This document shows positions 7,014-31,258 of a stretch of DNA of 41,260 bases, one piece after another. The stretch lies in contig LOET01000152.1 in the NCBI GenBank assembly GCA_001515985.1, forward strand, positions 1-41,260, written 5' to 3'. A program made the position numbers and the translations under genes. The first letter of the stretch is position 1. Every line of letters begins with the position of its first letter. This stretch comes from Sphingomonadales bacterium BRH_c3. GTDB lineage: Bacteria > Pseudomonadota > Alphaproteobacteria > Sphingomonadales > Sphingomonadaceae. Under the pieces are notes generated by a model that searched no databases, was not told the DNA's origin, and saw only the letters and a list, made by a program, of their open reading frames with translations.

Positions 7014-7922
7014 ATGAATGCTCTTAAGTTTGATCGCGAGTGGCGTTCTCAATTCCAGCGCCTCGAGGGCGCCTATGCTCCGTCAACAATGCTCAGTTAC
7101 CGCGCTGATGTCGAGGCTTTTGAAAACTGGTGCGTGGAGAATAAGATAGACAGGGCGTTCCCCGCAACCGTAGAAGCAGTATGCCGCTTTCTTGTAGATC
7201 AGGGGCAGTCCAAGGCGCCAGCAACGGTTCAGCGCCGGCTTTATGCCATCCGCAAGGTGCATCGCCTGCTAAGGCTGCCCGACCCCACCTATGATGAGGA
7301 TATCAACCTCGCCCTGCGCAAGGTTCGTCGGGCTCGAGCGATCCGACCACGACAGGCCAAGGGAATGACGCGTGCCTATCTCGACCAGTTTCTGGCCAGT
7401 GAGCCCGAAACCCCTTGGGGTCTTCGCAACCGCGCCATGCTTGCCCTGGGCTATGAGTTGCTGACGCGGCGCTCGGAACTCATCGCTCTGCGAAACGATG
7501 ACCTTACCGCGCGCGAGGATGGTACCTTGCGGGTCCTTATCCGCCGCAGCAAGGCAGACCAGTTCGGTCAGGGTCGCATTGCATTTACATCGAAACGCAC
7601 TGCAGATCTCCTGCGTGAATGGCTTGCTTACCGCGGACCAGAAATCGAGTGGCTGTTTTGCCCGATCTATCAAGGAAAAGTGATCGATCGATGCCTCGAG
7701 GCGACCACGGTGCGGCGAGTGATCAAGGAGGCTGCGCAGCGGAGCGGGCTCTGCGCCGCACAGATTGCGTCATTCAGCGGCCATTCGATGCGCGTTGGCG
7801 CTGCCCAAGACCTTTTGACACGTGGGTTTGACACAGCCGCCATCATGCGTGCGGGAGGATGGAAATCCGTGAATGTGCTTGCCCGTTATCTCGAAAAGGC
7901 TGAGCAAAATGTCTGGCAATGA
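7014..7922 (+). CDS. Tyrosine recombinase / integrase
   Basis: 302-residue site-specific DNA recombinase of the tyrosine (XerC/D-lambda Int) class. Residues 8-105 form a SAM-like core-binding domain, and the catalytic domain runs from about 115 to 300. The catalytic set is complete: R152 or R153 in LLTRRSEL, K180 in the beta-hairpin IRRSKAD, H257-x2-R260 in GHSMR, W283 in AGGWKS (W in place of the second His, common in this group), and nucleophile Y292 in ARYLE. It therefore looks intact. No tRNA or direct-repeat attachment site was seen nearby, so whether it is part of a mobile element or a resident recombinase is open. It sits just before the polysaccharide cluster. Confidence 0.9.
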   Translation: MNALKFDREWRSQFQRLEGAYAPSTMLSYRADVEAFENWCVENKIDRAFPATVEAVCRFLVDQGQSKAPATVQRRLYAIRKVHRLLRLPDPTYDEDINLALRKVRRARAIRPRQAKGMTRAYLDQFLASEPETPWGLRNRAMLALGYELLTRRSELIALRNDDLTAREDGTLRVLIRRSKADQFGQGRIAFTSKRTADLLREWLAYRGPEIEWLFCPIYQGKVIDRCLEATTVRRVIKEAAQRSGLCAAQIASFSGHSMRVGAAQDLLTRGFDTAAIMRAGGWKSVNVLARYLEKAEQNVWQ

Positions 7923-8137
7923 TCTGGCAAATGGTGCTAGCCCCGCTCGAGAATTTCAATGAAATCAGGTCCGAAGCCATCAGCCCAAAAGGGGGCGAGT
8001 TGCAAGAACCGGTCGCACACGGATACTCTTTCGTCGAAAATTTCCTGTCATGAATGGTTTCTTTGAGTGATTTGATCGGCTAGTGGCATATCCGTCGTAC
8101 CTGATGGTGCGCAGCAACACTGACGTGTTTAGCCCCC

Positions 8138-8153
8138 GAAGGAGTTTCTTGTC
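8138..8153 (+). promoter_or_regulatory. Ribosome binding site that fixes a TTG start
   Basis: GAAGGAG at 8138-8144 is a near-perfect Shine-Dalgarno sequence, 9 nt before TTG 8154. There is no in-frame ATG until well inside the export protein, and starting at the TTG gives a full lipoprotein signal peptide. This supports TTG as the true start. The remainder of 7923-8137 shows no gene and no convincing promoter. Confidence 0.6.
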
Positions 8154-8843
8154 TTGTTAAGGGCCAGTATTTGCGGGCTGATCGCCGTGGCGCTCACCGC
8201 ATGTTCTTCCACCAATCTGCCTCGCGGAGAACAGGCCTATGCCATGTTCCCGGCCCCAACCGGCGAAACGCGCCCCAGCGAGTACAAGATTGGCCCACTC
8301 GATGTGCTCAAGATTACCGTTTTCCAGGAACCGGATCTTTCCCTTGAAGAAGTGCCGGTCGATGCCAGCGGAGACGTGTTACTGCCACTGATCGGACTCG
8401 TAGAGGCAGCAGGGAAAACCGGAACAGAATTGTCCACCGCGATCGCTGGGCGCTTGGGGGAACGATATCTGATCGACCCCCAGGTTTCGATCATCGTGTC
8501 GCAATCGGCATCGCAGAACATAACAGTCGAAGGCGCGGTCAAGAAGCCGGGCATTTTCGAAATCCAGGGCCAGGCAAACCTGATTCAGGCCATGGCGCTC
8601 GCGGAAGGTCCAACGCAAACCGCCAAGCTGGGCGAGGTGATCGTGTTCCGGCGCAAGGAAGATGGACTGTACGCTGCACAGTTCAACCTTGACGACATTC
8701 GCAAGGGTCAGGCCGATAATCCGCAAATTTTGGCGGGTGATATCGTGGTAGTCGGCAATTCTTTCGCCAAGGCGCTGTTCCGCGATTTCCTGCAGCTCTC
8801 GCCGCTGCTGGCTACTGTCTTTGTGCGGCTTGATGGCCGCTAG
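8154..8843 (+). CDS. Polysaccharide export lipoprotein (Wza/GumB-like)
   Basis: Outer-membrane/periplasmic export component for exopolysaccharide or capsule. 229 residues. The N-terminus is a lipoprotein signal with lipobox LTAC (Cys17). The Poly_export domain follows from about residue 45 (YKIGPLDVLKITVFQEPDLS, then VPVDASGDVLLPLIGLVEAAG) and a SLBB-type domain at about 130-200 (ITVEGAVKKPGIFEIQGQANLIQAMALAEG). It is shorter than E. coli Wza (~380) and nearer to GumB of Xanthomonas. It lies 26 nt upstream of the Wzc-like kinase, the expected partner. A TTG start is used, with a strong ribosome site. Confidence 0.92.
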   Translation: MLRASICGLIAVALTACSSTNLPRGEQAYAMFPAPTGETRPSEYKIGPLDVLKITVFQEPDLSLEEVPVDASGDVLLPLIGLVEAAGKTGTELSTAIAGRLGERYLIDPQVSIIVSQSASQNITVEGAVKKPGIFEIQGQANLIQAMALAEGPTQTAKLGEVIVFRRKEDGLYAAQFNLDDIRKGQADNPQILAGDIVVVGNSFAKALFRDFLQLSPLLATVFVRLDGR

Positions 8844-13185: not shown

Positions 13186-14135
13186 TGATCTACCCATTGG
13201 AAGGAAAAAGGATCTGGTTGGCAGGGCACGGCGGGATGGTGGGCCGTGCTCTTGCGCGCCAATTACAGAAAGAAGACGCAACTGTACTGGTTCGTACGCG
13301 CCAGGAGCTCGACTTGGCAGATTACAAAGCTACATTCGAATGGATTGGAGATAACAAACCCGATACCGTGATTGTAGCCGCCGCACAGGTTAGCGGAATC
13401 ATTGGTAATCAGCTCTACCCTGCGGACCATCTCTACAACAATCTTGTCGTCGCAATGAATATCATCCATGCGGCACACCAGCACAAGGTTGAAAAGCTTC
13501 TATATCTTGGGTCCTCCTGCATCTACCCGAAGTTCGCTGAAATACCGATCAACGAAGATTCACTTCTTTCTGGACCGCTGGAACCGACCAACGAAGGCTA
13601 TGCCATCGCCAAGATAACAGGCCTCAAATTGGCTGAGCTCTACAGGCAGCAATACGGCCATGACTTTATCTCAGTGATGCCCACCAATATGTATGGCCCA
13701 GGCGATAACTTTGATCCTGAGACCAGTCATGTGATCCCGGGCCTGATCCAGCGAATTCACCACGCCAAGATCAATGGAGCGGACAGCATCACCATCTGGG
13801 GAACAGGTACGCCCATGCGCGAAATGCTGCATGTTGATGATGGAGCCGAGGCGATGCTTCATGTGCTAAAAAACTATTCAGGCAAGGGCCATATCAACAT
13901 TGGGTCGGGTGTGGACTGGACAATTCTCGAGCTTGCCGAAGCAGTTTGTCGAACTGTCGGATTTGAAGGAAAGGTTGAATGCGACAAGTCCAAGCCAGAC
14001 GGTACTGCGAGGAAACTTATGAACAGCGACAAACTTCGTGCCCTCAGGTGGGCACCCAAGATCGGTCTCGAAGAAGGGCTGCGCGATGCGTATGACTGGT
14101 ACCTGCGTGAAGTTTGGGCAGGTGGTACTGCATGA
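13182..14135 (+). CDS. fcl: GDP-L-fucose synthase (epimerase/reductase)
   Basis: Bifunctional 3,5-epimerase/4-reductase completing GDP-L-fucose from the Gmd product with NADPH. 317 residues. It shows the Rossmann motif GHGGMVG (15-21), the family stretch [11 protein letters not shown] (67-76), active-site S111/C113 in LGSSCIYP, and the Y140-x3-K144 dyad in YAIAK. The motif [21 protein letters not shown] is the GDP-fucose synthase signature. It is translationally coupled to gmd through ATGA and to the next gene in the same way. Together with gmd it shows that the polymer very likely contains L-fucose. Confidence 0.96.
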
Positions 14136-14902
14136 CCAAGCTCCAACCACCACCTCAGCAGCCCTTGTTTGAGACATTCGATGTACTTGGCCTGCCAATC
14201 GCCGCCGTCACTCCCGCAAGGGCTTCTAAGATAATCCACTGCTGGGCAGAGGATGACAAAGGTCGAATGGTCTGCCTGAGAGACGTGCACGGGATCATGC
14301 GCGCCCTTGATGACAAGGACCTATTCGACATCCACCTAGCTGCAGATATGCTCAGCCCTGATGGCACGCCATTGGCCCTGATAGGGAAGTGGCGCGGGGT
14401 CGACGTTGAACAGACATGCGGCGCGAATTTGCTGGAACGCATGATGGAAGATTCGATGCGATCAGGCTTGAAGCATTACTTTTACGGCGGAAACAACGGT
14501 GTTGCAGAAGAAATGGTTGCGATACTTCGTGATAGCTACCCGGGAATCGATATTGTCGGTTTCGGCACTCCGCCTTTCAGGCCTTTGACGTCGGATGAAT
14601 TTCAAGCGCTGGTCGATGAGATCCGCCGAACCAAAGCGGATGTCGTCTGGATTGGATTATCGACACCCAAGCAAGAAATCCTCATGCACCAACTCAAACC
14701 CCACATCAGCGCGACTGCTCTTGGAATCGGCGCAGTTTATGATTTTGTCACGGGACGCGTCAAACGTGCTCCCAGATGGATGCAGCAAATGGGGCTAGAA
14801 TGGCTTCATAGGTTTCTTTCGGAACCTAGAAGGCTGTGGCGACGCTATCTCGTGCTTGCGCCCCGTTTTGTCTGGCGTGTTGCGTTCTCCAAAGGTAGAT
14901 AA
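14132..14902 (+). CDS. WecG/TagA/CpsF family glycosyltransferase (GT26)
   Basis: Cytoplasmic-face glycosyltransferase; family members transfer ManNAcA, ManNAc or glucose to a lipid-linked primer. An open frame begins at 14114 but ATG 14132 overlaps the fcl stop as ATGA and has AGGTGG 6 nt upstream, so 14132 (256 residues) is preferred. Family motifs are LSPDGTPLALIG (the DGxP signature), CGANLLERM, the VVWIGLSTPKQE motif typical of GT26 (usually GxPKQE), and a basic C-terminus RWMQQMGLEWLHRFLSEPRRLWRRY, a region implicated in membrane association. It probably adds an early sugar of the repeat unit. Confidence 0.92.
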   Translation: MTKLQPPPQQPLFETFDVLGLPIAAVTPARASKIIHCWAEDDKGRMVCLRDVHGIMRALDDKDLFDIHLAADMLSPDGTPLALIGKWRGVDVEQTCGANLLERMMEDSMRSGLKHYFYGGNNGVAEEMVAILRDSYPGIDIVGFGTPPFRPLTSDEFQALVDEIRRTKADVVWIGLSTPKQEILMHQLKPHISATALGIGAVYDFVTGRVKRAPRWMQQMGLEWLHRFLSEPRRLWRRYLVLAPRFVWRVAFSKGR

Positions 14903-14993
14903 AGCGGCTGGTGTTCTCTGAAGAACGGCGCGCAAATACCGCTGGCCGTGGGCGCGGAATCTTCATTCTCCATCCAACTTGATATGGCGGGTT

Positions 14994-15809
14994 ATGTTCA
15001 AAAGATTTTCCATGTCAGAGATAACCTTTGAACGGGTTAGCGGTCACCTGAAACGACGCATTGCGTATCTGGACAGTTTGCGAAACTGGTATGCATCCGA
15101 GTTTGGACGCACCAACCGCGAAACTCTAGCAGCCCTAAAAAACAAACATGCGGGCGAGCGCGCAATCATCATCTGCAATGGGCCGTCACTCAAAAAAACC
15201 GACATGTCATTGGTGGAACGCGAAACAAGCTTTTGCATGAACCGGTCCTACCTGATGTTCGAGGAATGGGGTTTTACACCGACTTATTTCACGCTGACCA
15301 ATGAGTTGGTCTTGCGGCAGTTTCTCGACGATATCAGGGCACTGGCAATGCCCAAATTCACGGATTTCGCCTATCGAGAACTACTCAGGCCTGAAGATGA
15401 CACGAGATATTTCCGGCTCCCGCCAAGGCTCGCCGATAGGTTCGAGGGCGACCTGCAAAGACCGATAAGTAGCGGGGGAACGGTTACATTTGCCACTCTC
15501 CAGATCGCTTTTTTCCTCGGTTTTAGCAAGGTCATCATAATTGGCATGGATCATCGCTTTAAAGCGAGAGGCGTTCCTTCGGCAGCTGAGATCCGGCATA
15601 ATGAAGTCGATGAAGACCACGCCCATCCGAATTATTTTCCAAAAGGAATGAAATGGGAATTGCCGGATCTCATCCGATCGGAACTCGCTTACAAGCAAGC
15701 TCGGAATCAATACGAGAAACATGGTCGCCGAATAATCGATGCAACCGTTGACGGCGCCTGCACCGTTTTCGAGAAAATCCCATTGCACGAGGCTTTGGCT
15801 AGACCTTAG
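14994..15809 (+). CDS. DUF115 / GT42-like putative glycosyltransferase (CMP-sugar type?)
   Basis: 271 residues from ATG 14994; TTG 14979 and ATG 15012 are also possible and none has a clear ribosome site. Residue numbers below count from the TTG. I recognise the fold family shared by DUF115/MptE-like proteins and GT42 sialyltransferases: IIICNGPSL (63-71, compare A-G-N-G-P-S-L in CstI/II), FCMNRS (85-90), SSGGTVTFATLQIAFFLGF (164-182) and IIIGMDHRF (186-194), followed by an HAHPNYF stretch. The GT42 members use CMP-activated sialic acids. A CMP-sugar synthetase homologue is encoded 1.9 kb downstream in the same cluster. The homology is recalled, not computed, and the donor is inference. Base composition is more AT-rich than the flanking housekeeping genes. 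Confidence 0.6.
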   Translation: MFKRFSMSEITFERVSGHLKRRIAYLDSLRNWYASEFGRTNRETLAALKNKHAGERAIIICNGPSLKKTDMSLVERETSFCMNRSYLMFEEWGFTPTYFTLTNELVLRQFLDDIRALAMPKFTDFAYRELLRPEDDTRYFRLPPRLADRFEGDLQRPISSGGTVTFATLQIAFFLGFSKVIIIGMDHRFKARGVPSAAEIRHNEVDEDHAHPNYFPKGMKWELPDLIRSELAYKQARNQYEKHGRRIIDATVDGACTVFEKIPLHEALARP

Positions 15810-16756: not shown

Positions 16757-17653
16757 ATGTCGGCTTCAAGTGATGTCAGCGTAGTTATCCGGACGCTGAA
16801 TGAGGCCAAATGGCTGCCGCAATTGCTCGACGCGATAGATAGACAAGAAACCGGCGGCATGGCTGTCGAAGTAGTGATCGTCGATTCAGGCTCAAGTGAT
16901 GGAACGTACGAAATTGGTGCCAAACGAAATTGCAAGATGGTGAGAATTGCCAAGGTCGATTTCACATTCGGGCGCTCGCTGAATTACGGTTGTGAAGCTG
17001 CAAATGGTCGGTGGCTCGTATTCGTTAGCGGCCATTGCATCCCGGCGAGCAAGCGTTGGTTGACGGATTTGATAGCCCCATTGCGAAATGGGACATGCAG
17101 CTACACATATGGTCGGCAAATCGGACGCGAGCCGATAACAAAGTTCTCGGAAGGCCAGCTCTTCGCAAAATATTTCCCTCAAACTAGTTCTGTCCCGCAA
17201 GAAGGTTTTTTCTGTAACAATGCCAATTCTGCGCTCAGCAAGAGCCTGTGGTCCCAGCATAAATTTGACGAAGAACTGACTGGGCTGGAAGACATGGAAC
17301 TGGCTAAGCGGATCTATCAGATGGGCCACAAAATTGGTTATGTGGCCGAAGCTGCGGTTGAGCATATTCACGAGGAAAGTTGGGCGCAAGTTCGGCGGCG
17401 GTATGAGCGCGAGGCACTCGCATTACGCGACATCATGCCTGAGGTAACTCTTGGGAAACGTGATTGCTTGCGATACATCACTGCTGGCGTTCTACTTGAT
17501 GCTGCTGCTGCCGTTAGGGACCGCAGGCTGCACCGGACTGTTATGGAAATCATCCTTTTCCGCACTATGCAATACGTCGGAACCTACAAAGGCAACCATC
17601 TCCATCGACAAATTTCGCGTGAAACCAAAGAGCGATACTTTTATCCGCGATGA
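16757..17653 (+). CDS. Family 2 glycosyltransferase
   Basis: 298-residue inverting GT-A enzyme that would add one sugar of the repeat unit on the cytoplasmic face. It opens with VSVVIRTLNEAKWLPQLLDAI and VVIVDSGSSDGT (nucleotide-binding Asp), and reaches GLEDMELAKRI, where the ED is the usual catalytic-base position. The expected metal-binding D-x-D region reads SGHCIP, less typical but seen in other GT2 proteins. The C-terminal ~100 residues hold a basic amphipathic region. GGAGAAAG lies 7 nt before the ATG. Donor and acceptor are unknown. Confidence 0.88.
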   Translation: MSASSDVSVVIRTLNEAKWLPQLLDAIDRQETGGMAVEVVIVDSGSSDGTYEIGAKRNCKMVRIAKVDFTFGRSLNYGCEAANGRWLVFVSGHCIPASKRWLTDLIAPLRNGTCSYTYGRQIGREPITKFSEGQLFAKYFPQTSSVPQEGFFCNNANSALSKSLWSQHKFDEELTGLEDMELAKRIYQMGHKIGYVAEAAVEHIHEESWAQVRRRYEREALALRDIMPEVTLGKRDCLRYITAGVLLDAAAAVRDRRLHRTVMEIILFRTMQYVGTYKGNHLHRQISRETKERYFYPR

Positions 17654-17698: not shown

Positions 17699-18400
17699 GT
17701 GAAAAGACTAGTGTCTCTGCTTCCAATGAAAGCACACAGCGCCAGGGTGTCAGGCAAAAATTTCAAGGTACTAGGTAACAAACCTCTCTTTCGATGGATA
17801 CTCGATACCCTTCTTTCGATAGGGGAGATCGAACAAGTTGTTATCAATACAGATGCTCGCGATGTCTTGCTTGAGAACGGTCTGGACGACGGTTATGGTT
17901 TCGGCAGAGTATTGATCCGCGACCGGAAACCGGAACTCTGCGGAGACTTCGTGCCGATGAACGACATCATCTCCGATGACATCAATGCGATTGATGCAGA
18001 GGCCTATCTCATGACACACACAACCAATCCGTTCTTGTCTTCCGCTACTATATCTGCGGCCCTGCAAGCCTATCGCCAGGCGCTGGCCAATGGTGATGCT
18101 GACTCGCTTTTTTCGGTCAACAAGATCCAGACCCGATTCTATCGCGGTGATGGAAGCGCAATAAACCACGATCCGAAAGTGCTTTTGCGAACACAGGACC
18201 TTGAACCTTGGTTCGAAGAGAATTCAAACCTCTACATCTTTAATCGTGATAGCTTTGACAGCACTGATGCACGAATTGGTGCATGGCCGCTTATGTACGA
18301 GACACCCGCTCTCGAATCCATGGACATCGATACTCCGGCGCAATGGGAACTGGCTTCCGCGCTCGCGGCCTATCGTATTAAAAGTGAGATGCCCTCATGA
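17699..18400 (+). CDS. Acylneuraminate/Kdo-type cytidylyltransferase family protein
   Basis: 233 residues of the NeuA/KdsB nucleotidyltransferase fold, which activates 2-ulosonic acids (Neu5Ac, Kdo, legionaminic acid) as CMP derivatives. The N-terminal CTP loop reads LLPMKAHSARVSGKN (residues ~7-21), a variant of the R-x-G-S-K-x-x-x-K-N motif. LMTHTTNPF (~102) is the counterpart of L-x-P-T-S-P-L, and DIDTPAQWELA (~212) is the metal-binding C-terminal motif. GTG 17699 overlaps a GAGGTG ribosome-like stretch. The stop overlaps the next gene by 4 bp. No NeuB-type synthase is in the window, so the substrate is probably not made by the sialic acid route. Confidence 0.85.
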   Translation: MKRLVSLLPMKAHSARVSGKNFKVLGNKPLFRWILDTLLSIGEIEQVVINTDARDVLLENGLDDGYGFGRVLIRDRKPELCGDFVPMNDIISDDINAIDAEAYLMTHTTNPFLSSATISAALQAYRQALANGDADSLFSVNKIQTRFYRGDGSAINHDPKVLLRTQDLEPWFEENSNLYIFNRDSFDSTDARIGAWPLMYETPALESMDIDTPAQWELASALAAYRIKSEMPS

Positions 18401-19332
18401 GAGTGCTCGTTACCTGCCCGCCCATGCTCGGCATGATCGATGAATTCAGGCCGAAGTTCGAAGCAGCAAACGTGGAACTGGTCGCAGCTCAAGTAGTCCA
18501 AGTCATGGAGGAGGACGAATTGGAGCGGATCCTGCCGGGGTTCGATGGCTGGATAATTGGCGATGACATTGCATCCGCGCGGGTCTTGGGAGCAGGCGTA
18601 AGTGGTAGATTGAAGGCAATTGTCAAATGGGGCGTTGGGGTTGACAATGTCGACTTGGAAGCGGCGAAGGCGATGGGCTTAAAAGCATGCAACACGCCAA
18701 GTGTGTTTGGCCGCGAAGTCGCGGATCTGGCCATGAATTACGTGTCTGGTCTTGCACGCCACACATTCTTCATCGACCGGGAGATTCGCAAAGGTGATGC
18801 CTGGCCGAAGCCCGCCGGCATATCGCTCGCTGGCAAAACTGTGGCACTCGTTGGCTATGGCGACATCGGACGAAATACAGCCAAGAGGCTATTAGCCGCT
18901 GACATGCGACTAAATATCTATGATCCAGCATTTGCCGATGAAGCCAGCGAATATCTGACCCCTAGGGTTTGGCCTGAGGCCCTGAACCAAGCAGATTTCC
19001 TGATTTTTACTTGTCCGCTCCTCCCAATGACTCATCACATGTTTAATGCAGATATCCTATCGAAACTGAAAAGAGGGGTACGAGTCGTTAATGTGGGGCG
19101 CGGTCAGGTAATCCATGAAGAGGCGCTTATCAGGGCAATTGAAGAAGGCATTGTGCATTCAGTCGCGCTCGATGTGTTCGAAATTGAGCCTTTGCCCACC
19201 GATAGCCCGCTGCGAAACCATCCGTTCAATATTTTCGGATCTCACAATGCTTCGAATACGATCGACGCTGTTCGGCGCGTAAGCAATCAAGCTATAGATC
19301 TGCTATTTAGGTTCTTGAAAGTAGCTAAATGA
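18397..19332 (+). CDS. D-2-hydroxyacid dehydrogenase (phosphoglycerate dehydrogenase-like)
   Basis: 311-residue NAD-dependent enzyme of the D-isomer-specific 2-hydroxyacid dehydrogenase family. The nucleotide-binding motif is VALVGYGDIGRNTAKRL (~148-164). The catalytic Arg lies in NVGRGQVIHEEAL, the Glu in VALDVFEIEPLP and the His in FGSHNASNT, so the active site is complete. There is no C-terminal ACT domain, unlike many biosynthetic SerA enzymes. It overlaps both neighbours by 4 bp (ATGA). In this setting it could oxidise C2 of an aldonic acid to the 2-keto acid needed by the cytidylyltransferase. That role is inference. Confidence 0.88.
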   Translation: MRVLVTCPPMLGMIDEFRPKFEAANVELVAAQVVQVMEEDELERILPGFDGWIIGDDIASARVLGAGVSGRLKAIVKWGVGVDNVDLEAAKAMGLKACNTPSVFGREVADLAMNYVSGLARHTFFIDREIRKGDAWPKPAGISLAGKTVALVGYGDIGRNTAKRLLAADMRLNIYDPAFADEASEYLTPRVWPEALNQADFLIFTCPLLPMTHHMFNADILSKLKRGVRVVNVGRGQVIHEEALIRAIEEGIVHSVALDVFEIEPLPTDSPLRNHPFNIFGSHNASNTIDAVRRVSNQAIDLLFRFLKVAK

Positions 19333-20060
19333 GCAATTCGGTTCTCATTACAGGTTGTGCAGGTGGCATCGGCAGGGCGCTCGTTAGCCAGTTCAAGGAG
19401 GCCGGCTATCGCGTTATTGGGACCGACGTTGCCGAATGCGATGGTGCGCTTGATGCCTTTCTGACATGTGACCTTGCCAGATTAGCAATAGACGAGGGTT
19501 ACGGTCGTGCCTTCTCTGCTCAACTGCGTGACGCACTTGTCGGTAAGCAGTTGTCACTTTTAATAAACAATGCTGCCGTCCAAATACTGGGCCACATGCC
19601 AGAGGTTAGGCTGGCGGATTTCCGCCGAACCATCGACGTCAATTTGGTCGCACCATTCCGAATTGCTCAGATATGCCTTGAGCACATTGCTGATAAGGGT
19701 TGCGTTCTGAATATCGGCTCCGTCCATGCTGTCGCTACAAAGCCTGGCTTTGTCGGCTATGCGACAAGCAAGGCGGCGCTTCATGGGCTTACGCGCGCAA
19801 TGGCAGTCGATTTCGGCCCGCGATGTCGCGTTCTTTGTCTCGCGCCTGCAGCCGTCCGAACAGATATGCTAATGGCCGGCTTTGAGGGTAAGCCTGATAA
19901 GTTTGCGGAACTTGAATCGATGCATCCACTCAATCGCCTAGCGGAGCCAAGTGAAATTGCCCGCTTTGCGCTGATGCTTGCAACCGAAGCCTATTTTGCG
20001 ACTGGCAGCACTTTCTACCTTGATGGCGGCGTCCTCTCTCGCCTTCACGACCCTGAATAA
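19329..20060 (+). CDS. Short-chain dehydrogenase/reductase
   Basis: 243-residue classical SDR. It has the cofactor motif TGCAGGIG (8-15), NNAAV (~79), a catalytic Ser in LNIGSVHAV, and Y-x3-K in YATSKAALHGLTRAM. D-x-A-x-x-D near residue 36 (GTDVAECDG) suggests NAD preference. The C-terminal FYLDGGVLSR is typical of sugar and polyol dehydrogenases such as glucose 1-dehydrogenase. It overlaps the 2-hydroxyacid dehydrogenase by 4 bp and the lactonase by 1 bp (TAATG). A sugar substrate is likely from context; its identity is unknown. Confidence 0.88.
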   Translation: MSNSVLITGCAGGIGRALVSQFKEAGYRVIGTDVAECDGALDAFLTCDLARLAIDEGYGRAFSAQLRDALVGKQLSLLINNAAVQILGHMPEVRLADFRRTIDVNLVAPFRIAQICLEHIADKGCVLNIGSVHAVATKPGFVGYATSKAALHGLTRAMAVDFGPRCRVLCLAPAAVRTDMLMAGFEGKPDKFAELESMHPLNRLAEPSEIARFALMLATEAYFATGSTFYLDGGVLSRLHDPE

Positions 20061-20890
20061 TGCCCGCGAAGATTGAGACAATTCCAGGAAGCGCCCCAAA
20101 CATTCTGGGTGAAGGAGCTTTGTGGGACAAAACGAGCGGCTGCCTGTGGTGGGTCGACATCAAAGGCAATGCGTTGTTCAGATTCGATGTTGAGGTTCCC
20201 AAACTGAGATCTTGGCCCACTCCGGAATGGATAACCAGAGTCATTCCTACTGGCAGAGACGGTCACTTGATTGGAACGCTGTCGAATAGTTTTTGTCGAA
20301 TCAACGCCGTCAACACCCGCCTCGAGATTGAACCAATTTACTCGCTTGATCACGGCGAAACTCGGTTTAACGATGGAGCCTTGGATCCGCAGGGAGAATA
20401 CTGGGCTGGCACGATGCCCATGAGTGAAGACGAGCCGGTAGGCAAATGGATGCGTCTCGGAATGGATGGTCAAGTTGACGTTTTAGACACGCCCGGCTTC
20501 ACAGTTACTAATGGCCCGGCCTTTGATGCCAAGAATCGACTGGTTTACCTGACCGACAGCGTGGCGAGATGCATCTATCGTGCGACGTTCGATCCAGAGA
20601 GAGGCATCAGGGAACTGATCAAGTGGCGTTGCTTCAATTCCGAAGAGGGGTGCCCGGATGGCATGGAGATTGGTCCGGATGGATTGCTATGGATCGCTTT
20701 TTGGGATGGAGGTTGTCTGAGAGCCCTTAATGACAGAGGCGTTGTAACGCGGCGCGTCGATCTGCCTGTTATTCGACCGACAAGCGTTTCATTCAGGTCA
20801 GAGAGCATTCTTTATGTCACCAGCGCCGCATTCGGAACCAAACAGGACGGGATGCAAGGCATGACACTGCAGGTCATGCTGGATGGCTAA
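20060..20890 (+). CDS. SMP-30/gluconolactonase family sugar lactonase
   Basis: 276-residue six-bladed beta-propeller of the SMP-30/LRE family, which hydrolyses aldonolactones using a divalent metal. Visible family motifs are LGEGALWDKTSGCLWWVD (Glu ligand, ~14-31), FNDGALDPQGEYWAGTM, VTNGPAFDAKNRLVYLTDS (Asn ligand) and EEGCPDGMEIGPDGLLWIA (Asp ligand). All metal ligands appear present. No signal peptide, so cytoplasmic. It is coupled to the SDR by TAATG and overlaps the flippase gene by 8 bp. In this block it would open the lactone made by the SDR. Confidence 0.9.
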   Translation: MPAKIETIPGSAPNILGEGALWDKTSGCLWWVDIKGNALFRFDVEVPKLRSWPTPEWITRVIPTGRDGHLIGTLSNSFCRINAVNTRLEIEPIYSLDHGETRFNDGALDPQGEYWAGTMPMSEDEPVGKWMRLGMDGQVDVLDTPGFTVTNGPAFDAKNRLVYLTDSVARCIYRATFDPERGIRELIKWRCFNSEEGCPDGMEIGPDGLLWIAFWDGGCLRALNDRGVVTRRVDLPVIRPTSVSFRSESILYVTSAAFGTKQDGMQGMTLQVMLDG

Positions 20891-22316
20891 GCGAACTACG
20901 CAGGAACAGTCGCGGAAGCGAGCGCTACACTTATTCCAAAGATTCATTTCTAATCCGTCGGGAATGCTCGCATTCTCGAACCTTTCACGCGCAAGCAGCT
21001 ATCTTTTACCGGTTCCTTTTCTATACAATCTTAGCACCGCCGCGGCGGCTTTCTGGCTATTGGCAACCACCATTGTCAGCCTTCAAAATCTTGTCTTTTT
21101 GGGCGCTCCGCAGATTCTAGTCCGCATGCTGGCGGTAGCCAACAACAAGTCCAGTAGAATTGAGGGCCAATACTCGGTCGGAGACCTGGCGAGGCTAATG
21201 AGGTTGATCCTTACAGTGGCAAGCGTTGTCATAACATTGCTGATGCTCACCGCAGGAACCGCCGCGATTGCCAATCTAGTAGGCCAAACCGACGATCACT
21301 TTGATGCGTGGGCAGCCTGGTTAGTGCTCGCCTTGAGTACACCAATGCGTATTGTGATCCTGACTCGGCTGACATTTCTCAATGGCGTTGGAGAGATAGC
21401 GGCTCCGCGACTGGCGGACGGCATCGCTTGGGCTGTTAGCGGTATCCTGTCGGCCGCAACCATTATTGTTACCGAGTCATTGAGCGCTATGGCAGTAGCA
21501 GCGCAATTGCCAATCATAATCTCGGCGCTTTTTCTGGGTAGAATGGCCAACCGCGCCGGGTGGACTGATGCACTTCACCTAAGACGGGAGCAGCATTTGT
21601 CGAAGGTCGGGCGGGCTGTCTGGGCGCCCTCGTGGAGGGCTGGCCTTGGCGCACTGCTGAGTACGGGATCGCGCCAAGGTGGCGGCATCGCGCTTGCTCA
21701 GTTGGCTTCTCCCGCTGTTGCCGCCGGATATCTCCTGGCGCAGAATGTCGTCTCGGTCATCATGATGCTTAGCGCTGCGCCGATGCAGTCTGTGATTCAC
21801 AAATTGGCCGCTTTGTATGCACAAAGACAAACGGCCAGCCATATAGCACTCGCCGAGCAAGCAAGATCCAAGTCTTTGTGGACCGTCTCTGTCTTGGCAG
21901 GTGGCACCGCGCTGGCCGTACCGGTACTGGATTGGCTTGGCTTTGGTTATGCTTTTGTCGACCAAGTCGTCTGGTCGATGCTTGCCCTTGGCCTTTTTAT
22001 TCAACGATATGCCGCTGCCCATCTTCAGCACTACACAATCACAAATCACGTAGTCTGGCACTGGCTTGATGGCATAGGGGGAGCAGTCAATATTACGACG
22101 TGCATTTTCCTGATCCCTGCCATTGGCGCCAAAGGCGCAGCGTTGGCCTATCTCGTCAGCATGATTCCGGTATACCTATGGGTGCCGACACGAATGGCCG
22201 TAAAGAGGTTCGACATGCGATGGCCGGCGACCGATCTTCGCACTGTTACGACACCACTAGTTTCTCTGTTGGTCATGCTTGGACTGGCGAATGTGATTAA
22301 TCTGCCGTTTCTTTAA
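20883..22316 (+). CDS. Wzx-like flippase / polysaccharide biosynthesis membrane protein
   Basis: 477-residue MOP-superfamily protein with about twelve hydrophobic segments, expected to flip the undecaprenyl-PP-linked repeat unit across the inner membrane. Sequence conservation in Wzx is low; the call rests on length, helix pattern, the LVRMLAVANNKS loop after the second helix and position between sugar synthesis and polymerase genes. A basic N-terminal tail (MAKRTTQEQSRKRALHLFQR) precedes the first helix. It starts 8 bp inside the lactonase gene. Confidence 0.82.
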   Translation: MAKRTTQEQSRKRALHLFQRFISNPSGMLAFSNLSRASSYLLPVPFLYNLSTAAAAFWLLATTIVSLQNLVFLGAPQILVRMLAVANNKSSRIEGQYSVGDLARLMRLILTVASVVITLLMLTAGTAAIANLVGQTDDHFDAWAAWLVLALSTPMRIVILTRLTFLNGVGEIAAPRLADGIAWAVSGILSAATIIVTESLSAMAVAAQLPIIISALFLGRMANRAGWTDALHLRREQHLSKVGRAVWAPSWRAGLGALLSTGSRQGGGIALAQLASPAVAAGYLLAQNVVSVIMMLSAAPMQSVIHKLAALYAQRQTASHIALAEQARSKSLWTVSVLAGGTALAVPVLDWLGFGYAFVDQVVWSMLALGLFIQRYAAAHLQHYTITNHVVWHWLDGIGGAVNITTCIFLIPAIGAKGAALAYLVSMIPVYLWVPTRMAVKRFDMRWPATDLRTVTTPLVSLLVMLGLANVINLPFL

Positions 22317-22526: not shown

Positions 22527-23933
22527 ATGGCATTTAGATTCAACCTTGGGAGTCAATCAGACAATCGCACCTATTTTTCATGGGTTATTGCTGCCAGCTT
22601 GGCTATTATCATCATAGCTCCCTCGCTTTCTTCGGCATGGGAATTTACCAATACCAACGTCGCCATACTTGTTCTTGCTATGCCGACGCTTCTTTTGTTC
22701 CGTTTTTTCCTCTCGCGGCAAAGAGAGTTCTCTCCCAATCGCCCCGTGCTCTTGCTATTGGTTGCTACAATCATCGTTACATTTGGTGCATTAATACCGG
22801 CTTATCTTCGGGGCGGATATATTGCCGAGAAGTCTATCAATGCGATTGGATTTTATTCACTTGCGCTTTATTGTTCGGCGGCTTGCGGTTTGGCATCGCT
22901 GACATTTGGCAGGCACTCCAGTATAAAGATCATGATGAATTCTCTATACGTCGCATGCGTTGGTGTATGCGGAGCGCAATTGGCGCTTCTCGGTTTAGGG
23001 GTCGAGAATCCGTTGGCTGGGAGTGCGCCCCAAGTGGGAACAGAAGCCATTACGCTCAGTCTTTTGGGGATCGATCTCGGGCGAGTAATTCTGCCGTTAG
23101 CGTCAGGATTCCAAGCAGGTGCGATCGCGCCTCTCACCGCTTCAATTATAGCACTTACAAGAATACATAGAGGCGCTCCCTGGCGAGAATATGCATTTTT
23201 TCTGATCGGGCTTCTTCCGCTGCTGTTTCTTGATGCCCGCCAATTCCTGCTGGCTATAATTGTCGCAGCAATTCTGACACTAAGGCGTGTGCCTGCATGG
23301 GCAGCAGCAACTGGTGCAGCGATGCTGCCCGGAATTTTTGTTGCGATGCCTTTAATAATTAGAGAGATCTTACCGTTTCTTACAGGTGTCGCCACCATGC
23401 GATCAGGCAAGTTTGGCATGTTCAGTGGCCGCGAATACATATGGAACCAATTTTGGCGCTATATGGGCAATATTGACGCCAGTCCGTTGTTCTTCGGCCA
23501 CGGTATATATGGACACGCCATTTCAGGGGTGTCCAAAACTTATGGCAGGTTGTTTGGCGGCTGGGGAAGCGAAGCACAGAGCTTTATGCACCTTCACAAC
23601 AGCTATCTGCAAATCGTAATGGATACGGGGCTCCTCGGATTGCTCCTTTGGTGTACAATGATTTGGCTAGCGATCTATCATGCAATGCGCAATTCGCGCA
23701 GCCAAAGCAGAGACGCACCGGGATGGCGAGCGATTGGCAAAATCTTGATTGCGCTTTGTGTCGTCGCAAGCTCAGAAGTCATCTTCGGAGTTTATATGAA
23801 GGAAGCAATCGGCGTTTGGCTCTCTTTGTTTGCGACCGTCAGCGTCTACAATCGTCAACAGGATACAGATCGTCGTCGCCACGCTTTGGCTTCGTCGTCC
23901 ACCAAGATGAGAATGAGTGTGCATCCAGCTTGA
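22527..23933 (+). CDS. Wzy-like O-antigen/exopolysaccharide polymerase
   Basis: 468-residue integral membrane protein with about eleven to twelve hydrophobic segments and one large periplasmic loop near residues 290-365 (SGKFGMFSGREYIWNQFWRY to the HLHNSYLQIVMDTGLLGLLLW region). HNSYLQI followed by GLLGLL is the characteristic end of the Wzy/WaaL loop, where the His is functionally important. It would join repeat units on the periplasmic face. AT-rich compared with the rest of the window, as usual for polymerases. There is no obvious ribosome site before ATG 22527. It converges with the sugar transferase gene across 50 bp. Confidence 0.82.
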   Translation: MAFRFNLGSQSDNRTYFSWVIAASLAIIIIAPSLSSAWEFTNTNVAILVLAMPTLLLFRFFLSRQREFSPNRPVLLLLVATIIVTFGALIPAYLRGGYIAEKSINAIGFYSLALYCSAACGLASLTFGRHSSIKIMMNSLYVACVGVCGAQLALLGLGVENPLAGSAPQVGTEAITLSLLGIDLGRVILPLASGFQAGAIAPLTASIIALTRIHRGAPWREYAFFLIGLLPLLFLDARQFLLAIIVAAILTLRRVPAWAAATGAAMLPGIFVAMPLIIREILPFLTGVATMRSGKFGMFSGREYIWNQFWRYMGNIDASPLFFGHGIYGHAISGVSKTYGRLFGGWGSEAQSFMHLHNSYLQIVMDTGLLGLLLWCTMIWLAIYHAMRNSRSQSRDAPGWRAIGKILIALCVVASSEVIFGVYMKEAIGVWLSLFATVSVYNRQQDTDRRRHALASSSTKMRMSVHPA

Positions 23934-25763: not shown

Positions 25764-28340
25764 TTGAAAACTGAAAAGCAAATCCGAGCTGGCTTCGGAA
25801 GCCTGTGGCAAACCGTAGTAGAATATCTCCTCTACGCACTGGTCACGGCCTCAATCATTCTGGGCGGAGCGCCAAGCAGCGCAAACTGGCAGATCCTGGT
25901 GATTTGCCTGGTTGCCGCCTGCCTGCTTCCGGTTGCCATTGCGGCCGGCGCAGCCAGGAAATTTGCGTCATTGCCGATGGCTCTGAAGGCCGCCGCAATC
26001 GCTATCGTCGCGCTACCCTTGCTGCAATTGATACCGCTCCCGCCGGGCATCTGGCAGGCCCTGCCGGGCCGCGAGCTCGCTGGTGAAGTCTTCGGCTTGT
26101 TGGGGACCGCAGGGGCGTGGCGCGGGCTCTCGCTGGTGCCGCGCGACACGCTGTTCGGTTTCCTGATGCTCTTGCCGGCAGCAGCAGCCTTCCTTGCATC
26201 GCTGACACTGGATCGGGCTGGGCGCAGGCGCGTCGTATGGGTGCTCATTGCTGTCACTATTCTCGCGTTGCTGGTCGGCCTCATTCAGTTCGGCACGACG
26301 GGCTCGACGCTTGATCTTTACGATTCTCGCCATCGCGGCAGCTTCCTCGGCTTCTTCGCCAACCGCAATCACCAGGGGCTGCTTATGGCCATCGGTGGAG
26401 CTTTCGCGATCGCAGCCATCAAGGATCGCCTGCGCAACCCGCGGCTTGCGATGGCAGTCGCCGTGCTTGCGGCTATGGTCTTCTTCATTGCTGCGGTTGG
26501 CACGCTATCTCGCGCGGGTATTGGCCTGACCACAGCCGGATTGGCGGCGACTTTCTATGCCTGTTTTGTCCACGGCAAGCTGCGTTGGCAGTTCATTGTG
26601 GGCGGAGCGGTAGCGGCATTTGCCTCGTTGTATTTCGTGACCTTCAGCTCGACTGTCCAGGCGGCACTCGATCGCTTCTCGCAGATCGAGGAGAATGGTC
26701 GCCTCGAAATTTGGCAGAAGAGCTCGCCGCTGATCGAACAATACCTGCCATGGGGCGCCGGCCTGGGCAGCTTCACCACCGTCTATCCGGTGATCGAACG
26801 GCTCGAGGATATCAACCCGCTCTATTTCAACAGGGTGCACAACGAATATCTTGAACTCCTGATCGAGTTTGGCCTGCCCGGCCTGATCGTCCTCCTGCTG
26901 TTCATCTTCCTTTTTGGCAAACGCATCTGGAGTGGTTGGCGCGGCAGCGAGGAACTGGGCGCCTTTGCTCTGCCGTCCGCTGTAAGCATTGTGCTGGTAG
27001 GCCTGCATTCGATTGTCGACTATCCGCTCCGCACCCAGAGCCACGCGGTTATCTTTGCTGTAGCATGCGGCTTTCTGTTCGCGCTCCACCGCAAACGTTC
27101 GGGCTCTGGCGAAACTGTTAACGACGGGCCATCCTGGACGGATCGAAGCGTGAAGCTGAAGGCAATGGGCCTCGCCGGCCAAGCGCTGGCGATCATCGCT
27201 TTCGCGTTGTTTGTGACTTACCAGCAGCAGAGCGCGGACGCAGTAGACCGCTCCGGCGCCAGCCTGGTCAATGCCGAAGGCGAGGCGATGAGCCCGGCGC
27301 AACTTGCCTCGGCCAAAAGAGCTCTCGCGCGTCAGCCGCTCGATCAGCCGCTGCTCAACGCCATTTACGCCAGCGAAGTGCGAGGAGGACTCGATGAGAC
27401 CCAGCGGCGCGCCTATGTGTCGACCCTCGGCAAGCTGGGCTGGCGTGACACCGCCACACAGCAAAACCTCCTGTTCGAAGCAGCCCGGCGCAATGACCTC
27501 GAGGCAGCGCTCGACCACATGGATGCGCTGCTTCGGCGTGACAAGCTGGCCGAACAGATCATGCCTCTCCTTGCGCAATTGGAGGTCGATCCAATCGGAA
27601 CAAGGTTGATGGCCGAACGCCTTGCGAACAATCCCGTCTGGCGTAAGCGCTATTTCCTCCTAGCCGAGCCCTTGGCCAACCCGAAGATCCTCGACGCGCG
27701 CTTGCGGCTGTTTGATTACATGGCCGAACACGACATGCCGGTCGATCGCGTGGAAATGCGCGCGGCGCTTTATGCGCTGTTCAATGCCGGCCGCAAGGAC
27801 GCGATAGCCGAGATGGTCAGGGCCCAGCTTCCCGCCGAAAAGAAGTCGCAATTACTGTACGATCCTGACTTCGATCAATGGCTGGGAGAACCTCCTGAAA
27901 TTCGTTGGGCCACAGCGCCGCAGGACTGGCGACTCACCAACCGATCCGGGATCTCCGCGCAAATAATTGCCGAAGAATGGAGCAGCCGCCTGGTGCTGCG
28001 CTGGAACGGCCGGGGCGCCCCGATCATCGCGCGGACCATGACCTTTCTCACCGAAGGCCAGAGACCGGAGCTGGAGGTGACGCTGAGTGCGGGCAGCCAG
28101 CTTCGCGGCCTCGATTCGCTGCGCTTCACGCTGATCTGTCCCGGCGCGCGCGAGGTGCTGTTTGTGCGCAAGGCCGCGGGTTCGGCGGCAAACCCGGGGA
28201 TGGATCGCCGTTCGGCCTTCTACGCGGCCGAAAGCGGCTCGGCCTGCGACTACCCTGAGTTGTTTATCGGCGGCATGCCCAGGGTGGGCAATCGCGGCGC
28301 GGATCTGTCGATTGATTCAATCAAGCTGACCGTACCTTGA
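25764..28340 (+). CDS. O-antigen ligase/polymerase-domain protein with long C-terminal soluble region
   Basis: 858 residues. The first ~455 form a polytopic membrane region with the Wzy_C (O-antigen ligase-like) signature: FFANRNHQGLLMAIGG (~195-210) and RLEIWQKSSPLIEQYLPWGAGLG, FNRVHNEYLELLIEFGLPGL (~352-371), whose H-N-E-Y is the conserved periplasmic site. After one more helix (~465-485) the remaining ~370 residues are soluble, helical at first (RRAYVSTLGKLG, EAARRNDLEAALDHMDALL, TPR-like) and then beta-rich. It may be the ligase that attaches chains to a carrier, or a second polymerase. The start is TTG 25764. Codon use is GC-rich, unlike the polymerase upstream. Confidence 0.82.
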   Translation: MKTEKQIRAGFGSLWQTVVEYLLYALVTASIILGGAPSSANWQILVICLVAACLLPVAIAAGAARKFASLPMALKAAAIAIVALPLLQLIPLPPGIWQALPGRELAGEVFGLLGTAGAWRGLSLVPRDTLFGFLMLLPAAAAFLASLTLDRAGRRRVVWVLIAVTILALLVGLIQFGTTGSTLDLYDSRHRGSFLGFFANRNHQGLLMAIGGAFAIAAIKDRLRNPRLAMAVAVLAAMVFFIAAVGTLSRAGIGLTTAGLAATFYACFVHGKLRWQFIVGGAVAAFASLYFVTFSSTVQAALDRFSQIEENGRLEIWQKSSPLIEQYLPWGAGLGSFTTVYPVIERLEDINPLYFNRVHNEYLELLIEFGLPGLIVLLLFIFLFGKRIWSGWRGSEELGAFALPSAVSIVLVGLHSIVDYPLRTQSHAVIFAVACGFLFALHRKRSGSGETVNDGPSWTDRSVKLKAMGLAGQALAIIAFALFVTYQQQSADAVDRSGASLVNAEGEAMSPAQLASAKRALARQPLDQPLLNAIYASEVRGGLDETQRRAYVSTLGKLGWRDTATQQNLLFEAARRNDLEAALDHMDALLRRDKLAEQIMPLLAQLEVDPIGTRLMAERLANNPVWRKRYFLLAEPLANPKILDARLRLFDYMAEHDMPVDRVEMRAALYALFNAGRKDAIAEMVRAQLPAEKKSQLLYDPDFDQWLGEPPEIRWATAPQDWRLTNRSGISAQIIAEEWSSRLVLRWNGRGAPIIARTMTFLTEGQRPELEVTLSAGSQLRGLDSLRFTLICPGAREVLFVRKAAGSAANPGMDRRSAFYAAESGSACDYPELFIGGMPRVGNRGADLSIDSIKLTVP

Positions 28341-29985: not shown

Positions 29986-30585
29986 TTGAAATCCAATTTC
30001 CATCCCGCACAAGCCAGGCGAAGCCAGATAGGAACGCGGCGTTTCCGCTGGCGCACGGCCAGCGCGCTTGCGGCCTTCAGTTGGCTCACCCTGTTTGCTT
30101 CGCCAGCAGCGATCGCCAACCAGTCAGCCCTTCGCATCATCAGCAATTCAGAACTTCGTTTCGGAACCTTTGCCGTGCCAACGCGCGGTTTCAGGGAGGT
30201 TTCGGCATCGGGCGCCGTGACCAGCGCCGGTGTGTTCGTGCTCAGCGACACTGGCACGGGCCCGGCGCGCTTCACCGTGGAATATGATCGGGGCAACAAT
30301 GGCCGCAGGCGGATGGATCTTGAGATCGAGCTGGTGATGTCGGCGCCCCCGGCTTTTGGCAGTGGCGGCCTGACGGCCCGGCTCAGCCGTTATCAGACCG
30401 ATCTGCCCGGTTACAGCTTTATCGAGCCCGGACAGGTCATCCGGATCGAGATGCTCAATTGCGTCCAGCGTGTCTGCTCAAGGTCTTTCAATGTTGGCGG
30501 GCGGCTGGATGTCGAGAGGATCTTTGGCGGAGGGCCGATCGCGATCCCCATTCCCGTCGATGCAGTGCTCGTATCGGTGCGTTAG
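29986..30585 (+). CDS. Secreted DUF4402-like subunit, first gene (no N-terminal extension)
   Basis: 199 residues with a long basic n-region, then a signal peptide ending near PAAIAN. The mature part has the L-x-FGTFAVP start and the VGGRLDV ending seen in DUF4402 proteins. Only about 14 residues separate the predicted cleavage site from FGT, against about 29-30 in the three subunits downstream. It therefore lacks the N-terminal extension those share. A cysteine pair (CVQRVC) is near the C-terminus. The TTG start at 29986 is the only plausible start codon and has no clear ribosome site. In a donor-strand fibre, a subunit without extension would sit at the tip; this is inference. Confidence 0.65.
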   Translation: MKSNFHPAQARRSQIGTRRFRWRTASALAAFSWLTLFASPAAIANQSALRIISNSELRFGTFAVPTRGFREVSASGAVTSAGVFVLSDTGTGPARFTVEYDRGNNGRRRMDLEIELVMSAPPAFGSGGLTARLSRYQTDLPGYSFIEPGQVIRIEMLNCVQRVCSRSFNVGGRLDVERIFGGGPIAIPIPVDAVLVSVR

Positions 30586-30697: not shown

Positions 30698-31258
30698 ATG
30701 ATCTCCAAAGAAACCATGGCTATCGTTGCCACTTTTGGGCTGGCCGCGTTGCCCGCGCCCTCGCTGGCGGCACCGGGGAATGAGGCAACCGCCTCCGGCA
30801 ACGCCAGCGCCGAAGTGATCGCCCCCCTGACGTTCGAAGCGGTTGCCCCGCTGGAGTTCGGCACGCTGGCGGTTTCGCCAAGCGACAGCGGCTCGATCAG
30901 CGTTGACCCAGCCGGCGGCGCCCCGGTCTACACAGGTTCGCTGAGGGCTGCCTGCAGCGCCGCCGCGCTGTGCGATGCTTCACCCGCCCGATTCGCCGTG
31001 CGCGGGCAGCCGGGCCGATATTACCGGATCGAATATCCCGATCAGACATATGCGAGCCCGGTCAGCTCATCTGCGCCAGCTCTGCTGGTCAAGCAGATCA
31101 CTGTCGCGACCGACAACCTTTCTTCCCAGGGAGCGCGCGGCCAATTGAGCGCGGAAGGGGCGGACGGTTTCCGTGTTGGGGGCACGCTGGAAGTTCCCGG
31201 CGGAACTGCTGCCGGGAGATACAGGGCCACGTTGAATATAGTTGTTTCCTATGATTGA
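30698..31258 (+). CDS. Secreted DUF4402 family subunit, second gene
   Basis: 186 residues. Signal peptide 1-25 (cleavage after PSLA); the mature protein starts APGNEATASG and continues NASAEVIAPLTF, then LEFGTLAVS. It ends GGTLEVPGG, then RYRATLNIVVSYD, the DUF4402 terminal strand. A cysteine pair C-x5-C (in ACSAAALCD) may form a disulfide. AGGAGG (30687-30692) lies 5 nt before the ATG, and a small AGGAT/ATCCT hairpin (30670-30685) lies just before it. DUF4402 proteins are beta-rich secreted proteins of poorly known function, often near pilus-type chaperones. Confidence 0.82.
   Translation: MISKETMAIVATFGLAALPAPSLAAPGNEATASGNASAEVIAPLTFEAVAPLEFGTLAVSPSDSGSISVDPAGGAPVYTGSLRAACSAAALCDASPARFAVRGQPGRYYRIEYPDQTYASPVSSSAPALLVKQITVATDNLSSQGARGQLSAEGADGFRVGGTLEVPGGTAAGRYRATLNIVVSYD

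Follow-up and report, generated by a model that had tools for sequence, protein, structure and literature searches.

How might a surface polysaccharide cluster obtain a 2-keto sugar acid activated with cytidine monophosphate (CMP) when it codes for a cytidylyltransferase (CT) and for neither NeuB nor KdsA? This question is raised by contig LOET01000152.1 of Sphingomonadales bacterium BRH_c3 (assembly GCA_001515985.1), of which we analysed positions 1 to 41,260 (hereafter called the window). The genomic setting is a surface polysaccharide cluster, in which four genes overlap. We propose, with a probability of about 0.6, that they encode a NeuB- and KdsA-independent oxidative pathway leading from an aldose to a CMP-2-ulosonate for a surface polysaccharide. 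The four genes are as follows.

17699-18400, + strand: CT, likely a CMP-ulosonate synthetase, with a GTG start (CTP_transf_3, PF02348, 6e-15)
18397-19332, + strand: D-2-hydroxyacid dehydrogenase (HADH) of a CT-linked subfamily, predicted to oxidize an aldonate at C2 (2-Hacid_dh_C, 7e-44)
19329-20060, + strand: short-chain dehydrogenase/reductase (SDR), predicted to be a lactone-forming aldose dehydrogenase (adh_short_C2, 1e-38)
20060-20890, + strand: lactonase of the SMP-30/gluconolactonase type (SGL, PF08450, 3e-55)

The successive overlaps between the open reading frames (ORFs), up to and including that with the following flippase gene, are 4, 4, 1 and 8 bases long. The end-to-start arrangement noted in a preliminary description of this DNA is thus borne out by the ORF coordinates. 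Its family calls for the four genes, made from motifs, are upheld as well, as every Pfam match of the CT, HADH, SDR and SMP-30 proteins lies over the gathering cut-off.

The CT matches PF02348 over its full length (56 bits for a cut-off of 22.6; profile positions 3-200 of 217). It is the only full-length match to this family in the genome; three other places give partial matches of 23-30 bits, also over the cut-off. The nearest solved chains are NeuA/CMP-Neu5Ac synthetases, and the score against the NCBIfam equivalog for the pseudaminate cytidylyltransferase PseF (61 bits) is below the cut-off of 205.7. Residues K20, N21, R74, Q166 and D209-I-D211, which we take to form the active-site stretch and the C-terminal DxD, are kept in at least 80 of the 81 aligned sequences. 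Two related loci each contain two CT copies. One is L026, where a first CT gene occupies 7507-8154 and another, whose product is 48% identical to that of the window, lies at 13638-14369 on the - strand; the other is L056.

Relatives of the CT amount to 6,915 proteins at E <= 0.001, a number that may include other cytidylyltransferases. A profile search with A1 (the window CT and 19 of 120 listed relatives), covering one genome per species, yielded 241 relatives; the best 80 were taken as related loci, and these span seven phyla. ORFs were called with a simple homology-guided script; the counts of genes near CT rest on tblastn instead. An HADH gene is found near CT in 71 of the 80 loci, and in 55 of the 58 that are well covered, i.e. 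extend 3.5 kb or more to each side. The CT-HADH linkage, conserved in seven phyla, is thus the core of the module, mostly behind one gene of a family 2 glycosyltransferase (GT2).

We also searched two samples of genomes that were not chosen by similarity, scoring at most seven CT and five HADH candidates per genome. The CT profile was positive in 5 of 396 genomes of the window's order and in 3 of 398 of its phylum, the window genome being counted in both. The HADH profile found exactly those five and three genomes, with 347-547 bits, and CT and HADH are side by side in every positive genome. The remaining HADH-profile matches at E <= 1e-60 have at most 216 bits and lie in open frames of at least 529 residues, which fits the expectation for phosphoglycerate dehydrogenase (PGDH). 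Besides A1, the sequence sets were A5 (the window HADH and 19 of 45 listed), A3 (30 of 37 family-4 proteins) and A4 (14 of 19 family-7 proteins, leaving out a fragment, three proteins with long N-terminal extensions and that of L047, which has a masked run). CT is absent from all 20 listed genomes of the same genus; the module is therefore accessory, and the polysaccharide cluster may be mobile.

Nine of the 80 loci have no HADH gene. In three of them, the contig ends soon after CT (869 bases in L018, 88 in L033 and 455 in L052), and one, L071, is unexplained. In the other five, a gene of the pyruvate aldolase type (HpcH/HpaI-type; Pfam run on two) precedes CT. The presence of an aldolase-type gene in the place of HADH points to HADH as the likely source of the 2-keto acid.

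Two observations on these loci may be added. The CT at L071:9980-10675 is the only well-covered one with neither HADH nor aldolase, and it is directly followed by what looks by eye like a glycosyltransferase gene. Near the aldolase-linked CT of L028 and at L073:751-1995, a gene resembles by eye that of the sulfate adenylyltransferase CysN, a possible sign that the polymers are sulfated.

The preliminary description had also stated that no NeuB- or KdsA-type gene is present here, and had named a NeuB-type synthase elsewhere in the genome as what would speak against its proposal. When the assembled genome (82% complete), together with the window, was searched for NeuB (PF03102), the KdsA/DAHP family (PF00793) and the KdsA equivalog, no match was obtained. 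Similarly, no relatives of NeuB or KdsA were detected in the 80 related loci (1.34 Mb, with self-hit controls). This search was made with exact coordinates, and a synthase within the loci was rejected.

Both domains of the HADH, PF02826 and PF00389, were found. Its residues were judged from aligned columns, because a motif regular expression had failed on 13 of 73 proteins. After filtering by length, 65 HADH, 40 SDR, 12 SMP-30 and 48 GT2 proteins were available for such comparisons. R235, E264 and H283, presumably the catalytic Arg/Glu/His triad, are invariant across the 65 HADH proteins. PGDH provides both the highest-scoring named model and the nearest solved chains, but the score against the PGDH (SerA) equivalog is 172.5 for a cut-off of 454. 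A separate PGDH-like gene coding for 532 residues is present in the same genome, which bears on the other objection named in the preliminary description, an HADH specific for phosphoglycerate or another unrelated acid. Given this gene and the same-genome linkage of HADH to CT, we rejected the idea that HADH is the housekeeping PGDH.

For the SDR, the best NCBIfam names are glucose 1-dehydrogenase (142.5 vs. a cut-off of 215) and aldose dehydrogenase (130.4 vs. 341). Judged by these sugar-dehydrogenase cut-offs, the protein is assignable to the SDR superfamily only. Its residues S131, Y144 and K148 are conserved in 39, 40 and 37 of 40 aligned proteins, respectively. The SMP-30 lactonase matches regucalcin at E 6e-22, and E18, N104, N151 and D200, which we assume to be the metal-site columns, are invariant among the 12 aligned proteins.

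A close SDR is found in 40 of the 80 loci (35 of the 58 well-covered ones), a UlaG-like hydrolase in 27 and an SMP-30 protein in 12, seven of which are on the same strand and at least 30% identical. Within the span searched for lactonases (about -3.5 to +5 kb around CT), the 80 loci have an SMP-30-type or a UlaG-like protein, never both. In seven loci, the UlaG-like domain is fused to GT2 (Pfam run on one). These proteins are ~21-22% identical to the L-ascorbate-6-phosphate lactonase UlaG (2wyl/2wym); unlike UlaG, they are encoded near CT or fused to GT2, and none is found in this window. SDR and lactonase are associated across loci (Fisher 1.6e-4), yet the tree offers only three to four independent pairs where branches are well supported, which is insufficient to demonstrate an association. 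This is a quick tree of CT, with a support of 95 in 15 of 78 inner branches and of 87 for the aldolase clade.

The one-strand order CT-HADH-SDR-SMP-30 is present in seven of the 80 loci (L001, L002, L008, L009, L021, L024 and L055), with an extra gap before HADH in L024. A further locus, L109, has the same four-gene order. These recurrences and the CT-HADH linkage indicate that the arrangement is not due to chance. The conserved co-occurrence without neuB or kdsA neighbours that the preliminary description proposed to look for is found for CT and HADH. The SDR and lactonase are frequent but accessory to the CT-HADH core and not universal.

In the proposed pathway, the SDR would use NAD to convert an aldose to an aldonolactone, and a lactonase, of the SMP-30 type here and UlaG-like elsewhere, would convert the latter to an aldonate. 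HADH would then oxidize C2 of the aldonate to yield a 2-ulosonate, which CT would activate with CTP to CMP-ulosonate. Where a locus has GT2-CT-HADH alone, the pathway would begin with an aldonate from another source. HADH-family enzymes usually favour reduction, so that the reaction would need to be drawn forward by CTP-driven activation and the removal of pyrophosphate. Since none of the 28 scanned window proteins was recognised as a sugar-acid dehydratase or aldolase, we predict that the product is a hex- or pent-2-ulosonic acid of the non-deoxy (3-hydroxy) type. We infer the chemical steps, their order and direction, the sugar and the identity of the transferase from protein families and genetic linkage. 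Transfer of the ulosonate would be performed by the PF01973 protein or the GT2 encoded 5' of CT, and export and polymerisation by Wzx and Wzy proteins, whose genes are listed here.

14979-15809, + strand: PF01973 (DUF115/MptE-like) protein, predicted CMP-ulosonate transferase
16757-17653, + strand: GT2 directly 5' of CT (PF00535)
20883-22316, + strand: Wzx-like flippase (NF041503, 62 bits, under the cut-off of 300)
22527-23933, + strand: Wzy/O-antigen ligase-type polymerase of the same cluster (PF04932)

The GT2 gene is near CT in 71 of the 80 loci (54 of the 58 well-covered ones), and it is upstream on the same strand in 70. The usual DxD of the protein is replaced by S-G-H, and S[GA]HC is found in 69 of 72 sequences. 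The PF01973 domain scores over its cut-off, and the predicted fold of the protein resembles those of Maf and Cst-II, which use CMP-ulosonates. In PDB searches, its alignment reached Cst-II at E 0.04, and the sequence alone gave no match. The score against the equivalog for the Kdo transferase WaaZ is 30.6, below the cut-off of 200. A PF01973 gene is present within 8 kb on either side of CT in 44 of the 80 loci, a figure for which the background rate was not measured. Based on the predicted fold, this protein is likely a CMP-sugar transferase. For the flippase, Pfam gives no match, and the sole NCBIfam match is the O-unit flippase-like model, under its cut-off.

Two findings weigh against the oxidative pathway. 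An Acuticoccus plasmid has an aldolase gene beside both CT and an HADH of a different subfamily, which argues against a strict replacement of one by the other, and a KdsA-type match is found in 25 of the 29 module genomes (the window's included), with none in four. The first finding bears on the alternative that survives best, although we consider it unlikely. A pyruvate-type aldolase encoded elsewhere in the genome would make a 2-keto-3-deoxy acid for activation by CT, with HADH and SDR only supplying a precursor, e.g. hydroxypyruvate, or modifying the sugar. The aldolase-type gene before CT in five of the 80 loci is also consistent with this idea. However, aldolase and HADH never occur together in those loci (one of the five is contig-truncated), and the Acuticoccus HADH is not of the CT-linked subfamily. 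No aldolase was recognised among the 28 scanned window proteins, the genome not having been searched for every aldolase family.

The second finding bears on a less probable alternative, namely that a synthase encoded elsewhere feeds a classical pathway to nonulosonates or Kdo and that HADH, SDR and lactonase serve another purpose. Indeed, the CT belongs to PF02348 and is related to NeuA. As the window genome is 82% complete, we examined other module genomes, i.e. 27 records not labelled as metagenome-assembled genomes (MAGs) and one MAG, picked from the 80 loci with omission of the non-MAG L035. NeuB has a match in 12 of these 28 genomes and none in 16. In contrast, neither NeuB nor KdsA was detected in G000, G001 and G003. 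G001 carries L001 (Sphingomonadales EhC05), which shares 3,687 bases at 100% identity with G373. As the latter is listed as 100% complete and is likely the same genome as G001, incompleteness is less of a concern there. Altericroceibacterium endophyticum (L003) is, like EhC05, a cultured strain that has the module and in which neither synthase was detected. The occurrence of CT and HADH in exactly the same genomes of two samples and the lack of detectable synthase genes in the 80 loci also argue against a classical pathway.

Somewhat more doubtful is the possibility that HADH is a reductase or acts on another acid, such as phosphonopyruvate or phosphoglycerate, with CT activating some other acid, as happens in phosphonate tailoring. 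It is favoured by the closeness of HADH to PGDH models and structures and by the precedent for nucleotidyl activation of phosphonates (PMC6697681). However, HADH falls far below the PGDH cut-off in a genome with a separate PGDH-like gene, and the CT is NeuA-like and sits in a glycan cluster. Furthermore, the phosphoenolpyruvate mutase family was undetected in 6 of the 29 module genomes, which led us to reject phosphonate activation; its presence in the other 23 says little, because this family also covers isocitrate lyases. Finally, sugar catabolism often involves SDR and SMP-30 genes and many loci lack SDR and lactonase, but a mere insertion of sugar-acid catabolic genes (SDR, lactonase and HADH) next to a CT is highly improbable in view of the HADH linkage conserved in seven phyla, the gene overlaps and the fusions of UlaG-like domains to GT2.

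The core of the preliminary description, the formation of a 2-keto sugar acid that needs neither NeuB nor KdsA, is thus likely, with CT and HADH present in the same genomes and an aldolase-type gene in the place of HADH in five loci. The detail of its four-gene route is plausible but unproven: SDR and the two unrelated types of lactonases appear as accessory, and GT2 and the PF01973 protein have been added to the picture.

The oxidative pathway shares with the NeuB-NeuA, PseI-PseF and Leg pathways a CTP_transf_3 cytidylyltransferase, a PF01973/Cst-type transferase and the location in a surface-glycan cluster. In contrast with them, a NeuB-type synthase is undetected here and a 2-hydroxyacid dehydrogenase gene adjoins CT. 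A CMP-activated 2-ulosonate is also common to the KdsA-KdsB-WaaA/WaaZ pathway of Kdo, and the PF01973 protein weakly matches the WaaZ model. However, the assembled genome has neither KdsA nor another full-length PF02348 match, and the predicted product is not a 3-deoxyoctulosonate. Oxidative sugar catabolism proceeds through an aldose dehydrogenase, a lactonase and then enzymes of the 2-ketogluconate reductase type. The SDR, SMP-30 or UlaG-like lactonase and D-2-hydroxyacid dehydrogenase families are thus shared, but here they are found in a polysaccharide cluster with the CT gene first, and HADH would run towards the 2-keto acid. Ko (D-glycero-D-talo-oct-2-ulosonic acid) is, like the predicted product, a non-deoxy (3-hydroxy) ulosonic acid; it is made by hydroxylation of Kdo, whereas the predicted product would arise from aldose oxidation. 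Ko is an ulosonic acid of a bacterial glycolipid (PMC8036547). In the open-access literature searched, no title or beginning of an abstract describes this gene set or route, which is no proof that none exists. PMC9000132 deals with classical NeuA/NeuB and is not relevant to this route.

We see an even chance that the oxidative pathway represents a widespread, unrecognised third way to CMP-ulosonic acids. No C-C bond would be formed; oxidation of an ordinary aldose would yield a hex- or pent-2-ulosonic acid of the 3-hydroxy type, which would then be activated with CMP. Surface polymers would thereby gain a class of acidic sugars that are now annotated as sialic acid-like. Because the two core genes lie side by side in seven phyla, sialic acid names have likely hidden a class of surface sugars. 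Were the pathway real, predictions of sialic acids in environmental bacteria that rest on CT alone would be wrong, ulosonic acids would need no aldol-type condensation, and a new group of CMP-sugars and transferases could be tested with four to six proteins.

In the Pfam scan, the neighbouring genes code for tyrosine recombinase-like, polysaccharide export, Wzz/ATPase and GDP-mannose dehydratase-family proteins. A WecG-type transferase, the PF01973 protein, two FkbM proteins, a GT2, a Bac_transf sugar transferase and two Wzy_C proteins are also encoded nearby. The latter two, different O-antigen ligase-type proteins of one cluster, are encoded at 22527-23933 and 25764-28340. An epimerase-family gene of the cluster resembles by eye that of GDP-fucose synthase. 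The tyrosine recombinase/phage integrase-like gene (7014-7922) lies just 5' of the polysaccharide cluster, and two DUF4402 proteins are encoded downstream of the polysaccharide genes (29986-30585 and 30698-31258).

CT was also found on five plasmids. On plasmid pAge77 of Thalassovita gelatinovora, three genes separate SDR-SMP-30-PF01973 from the GT2-CT-HADH that follows. In Sulfitobacter sp. D7, there are an SMP-30 gene, an SDR gene on the opposite strand and GT2-CT-HADH. The SMP-30 proteins of pAge77 and D7 are 29-30% identical to that of the window, and the D7 SDR is 31% identical. Gemmobacter fulvus has PF01973 and GT2-CT-HADH, SDR and SMP-30 not being in the stretch seen. In Pararhizobium sp. 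A13, CT and HADH are 38% and 40% identical to those of the window, respectively, and still adjacent. In three Rhodobacterales (L102, L103 and L106), the plasmids with GT2-CT-HADH measure 78-142 kb. CT is annotated as 'acylneuraminate cytidylyltransferase' in four of the five plasmid records, the fifth being without annotation there, and the plasmid HADH proteins are annotated as 'phosphoglycerate dehydrogenase' or 'NAD(P)-dependent oxidoreductase'.

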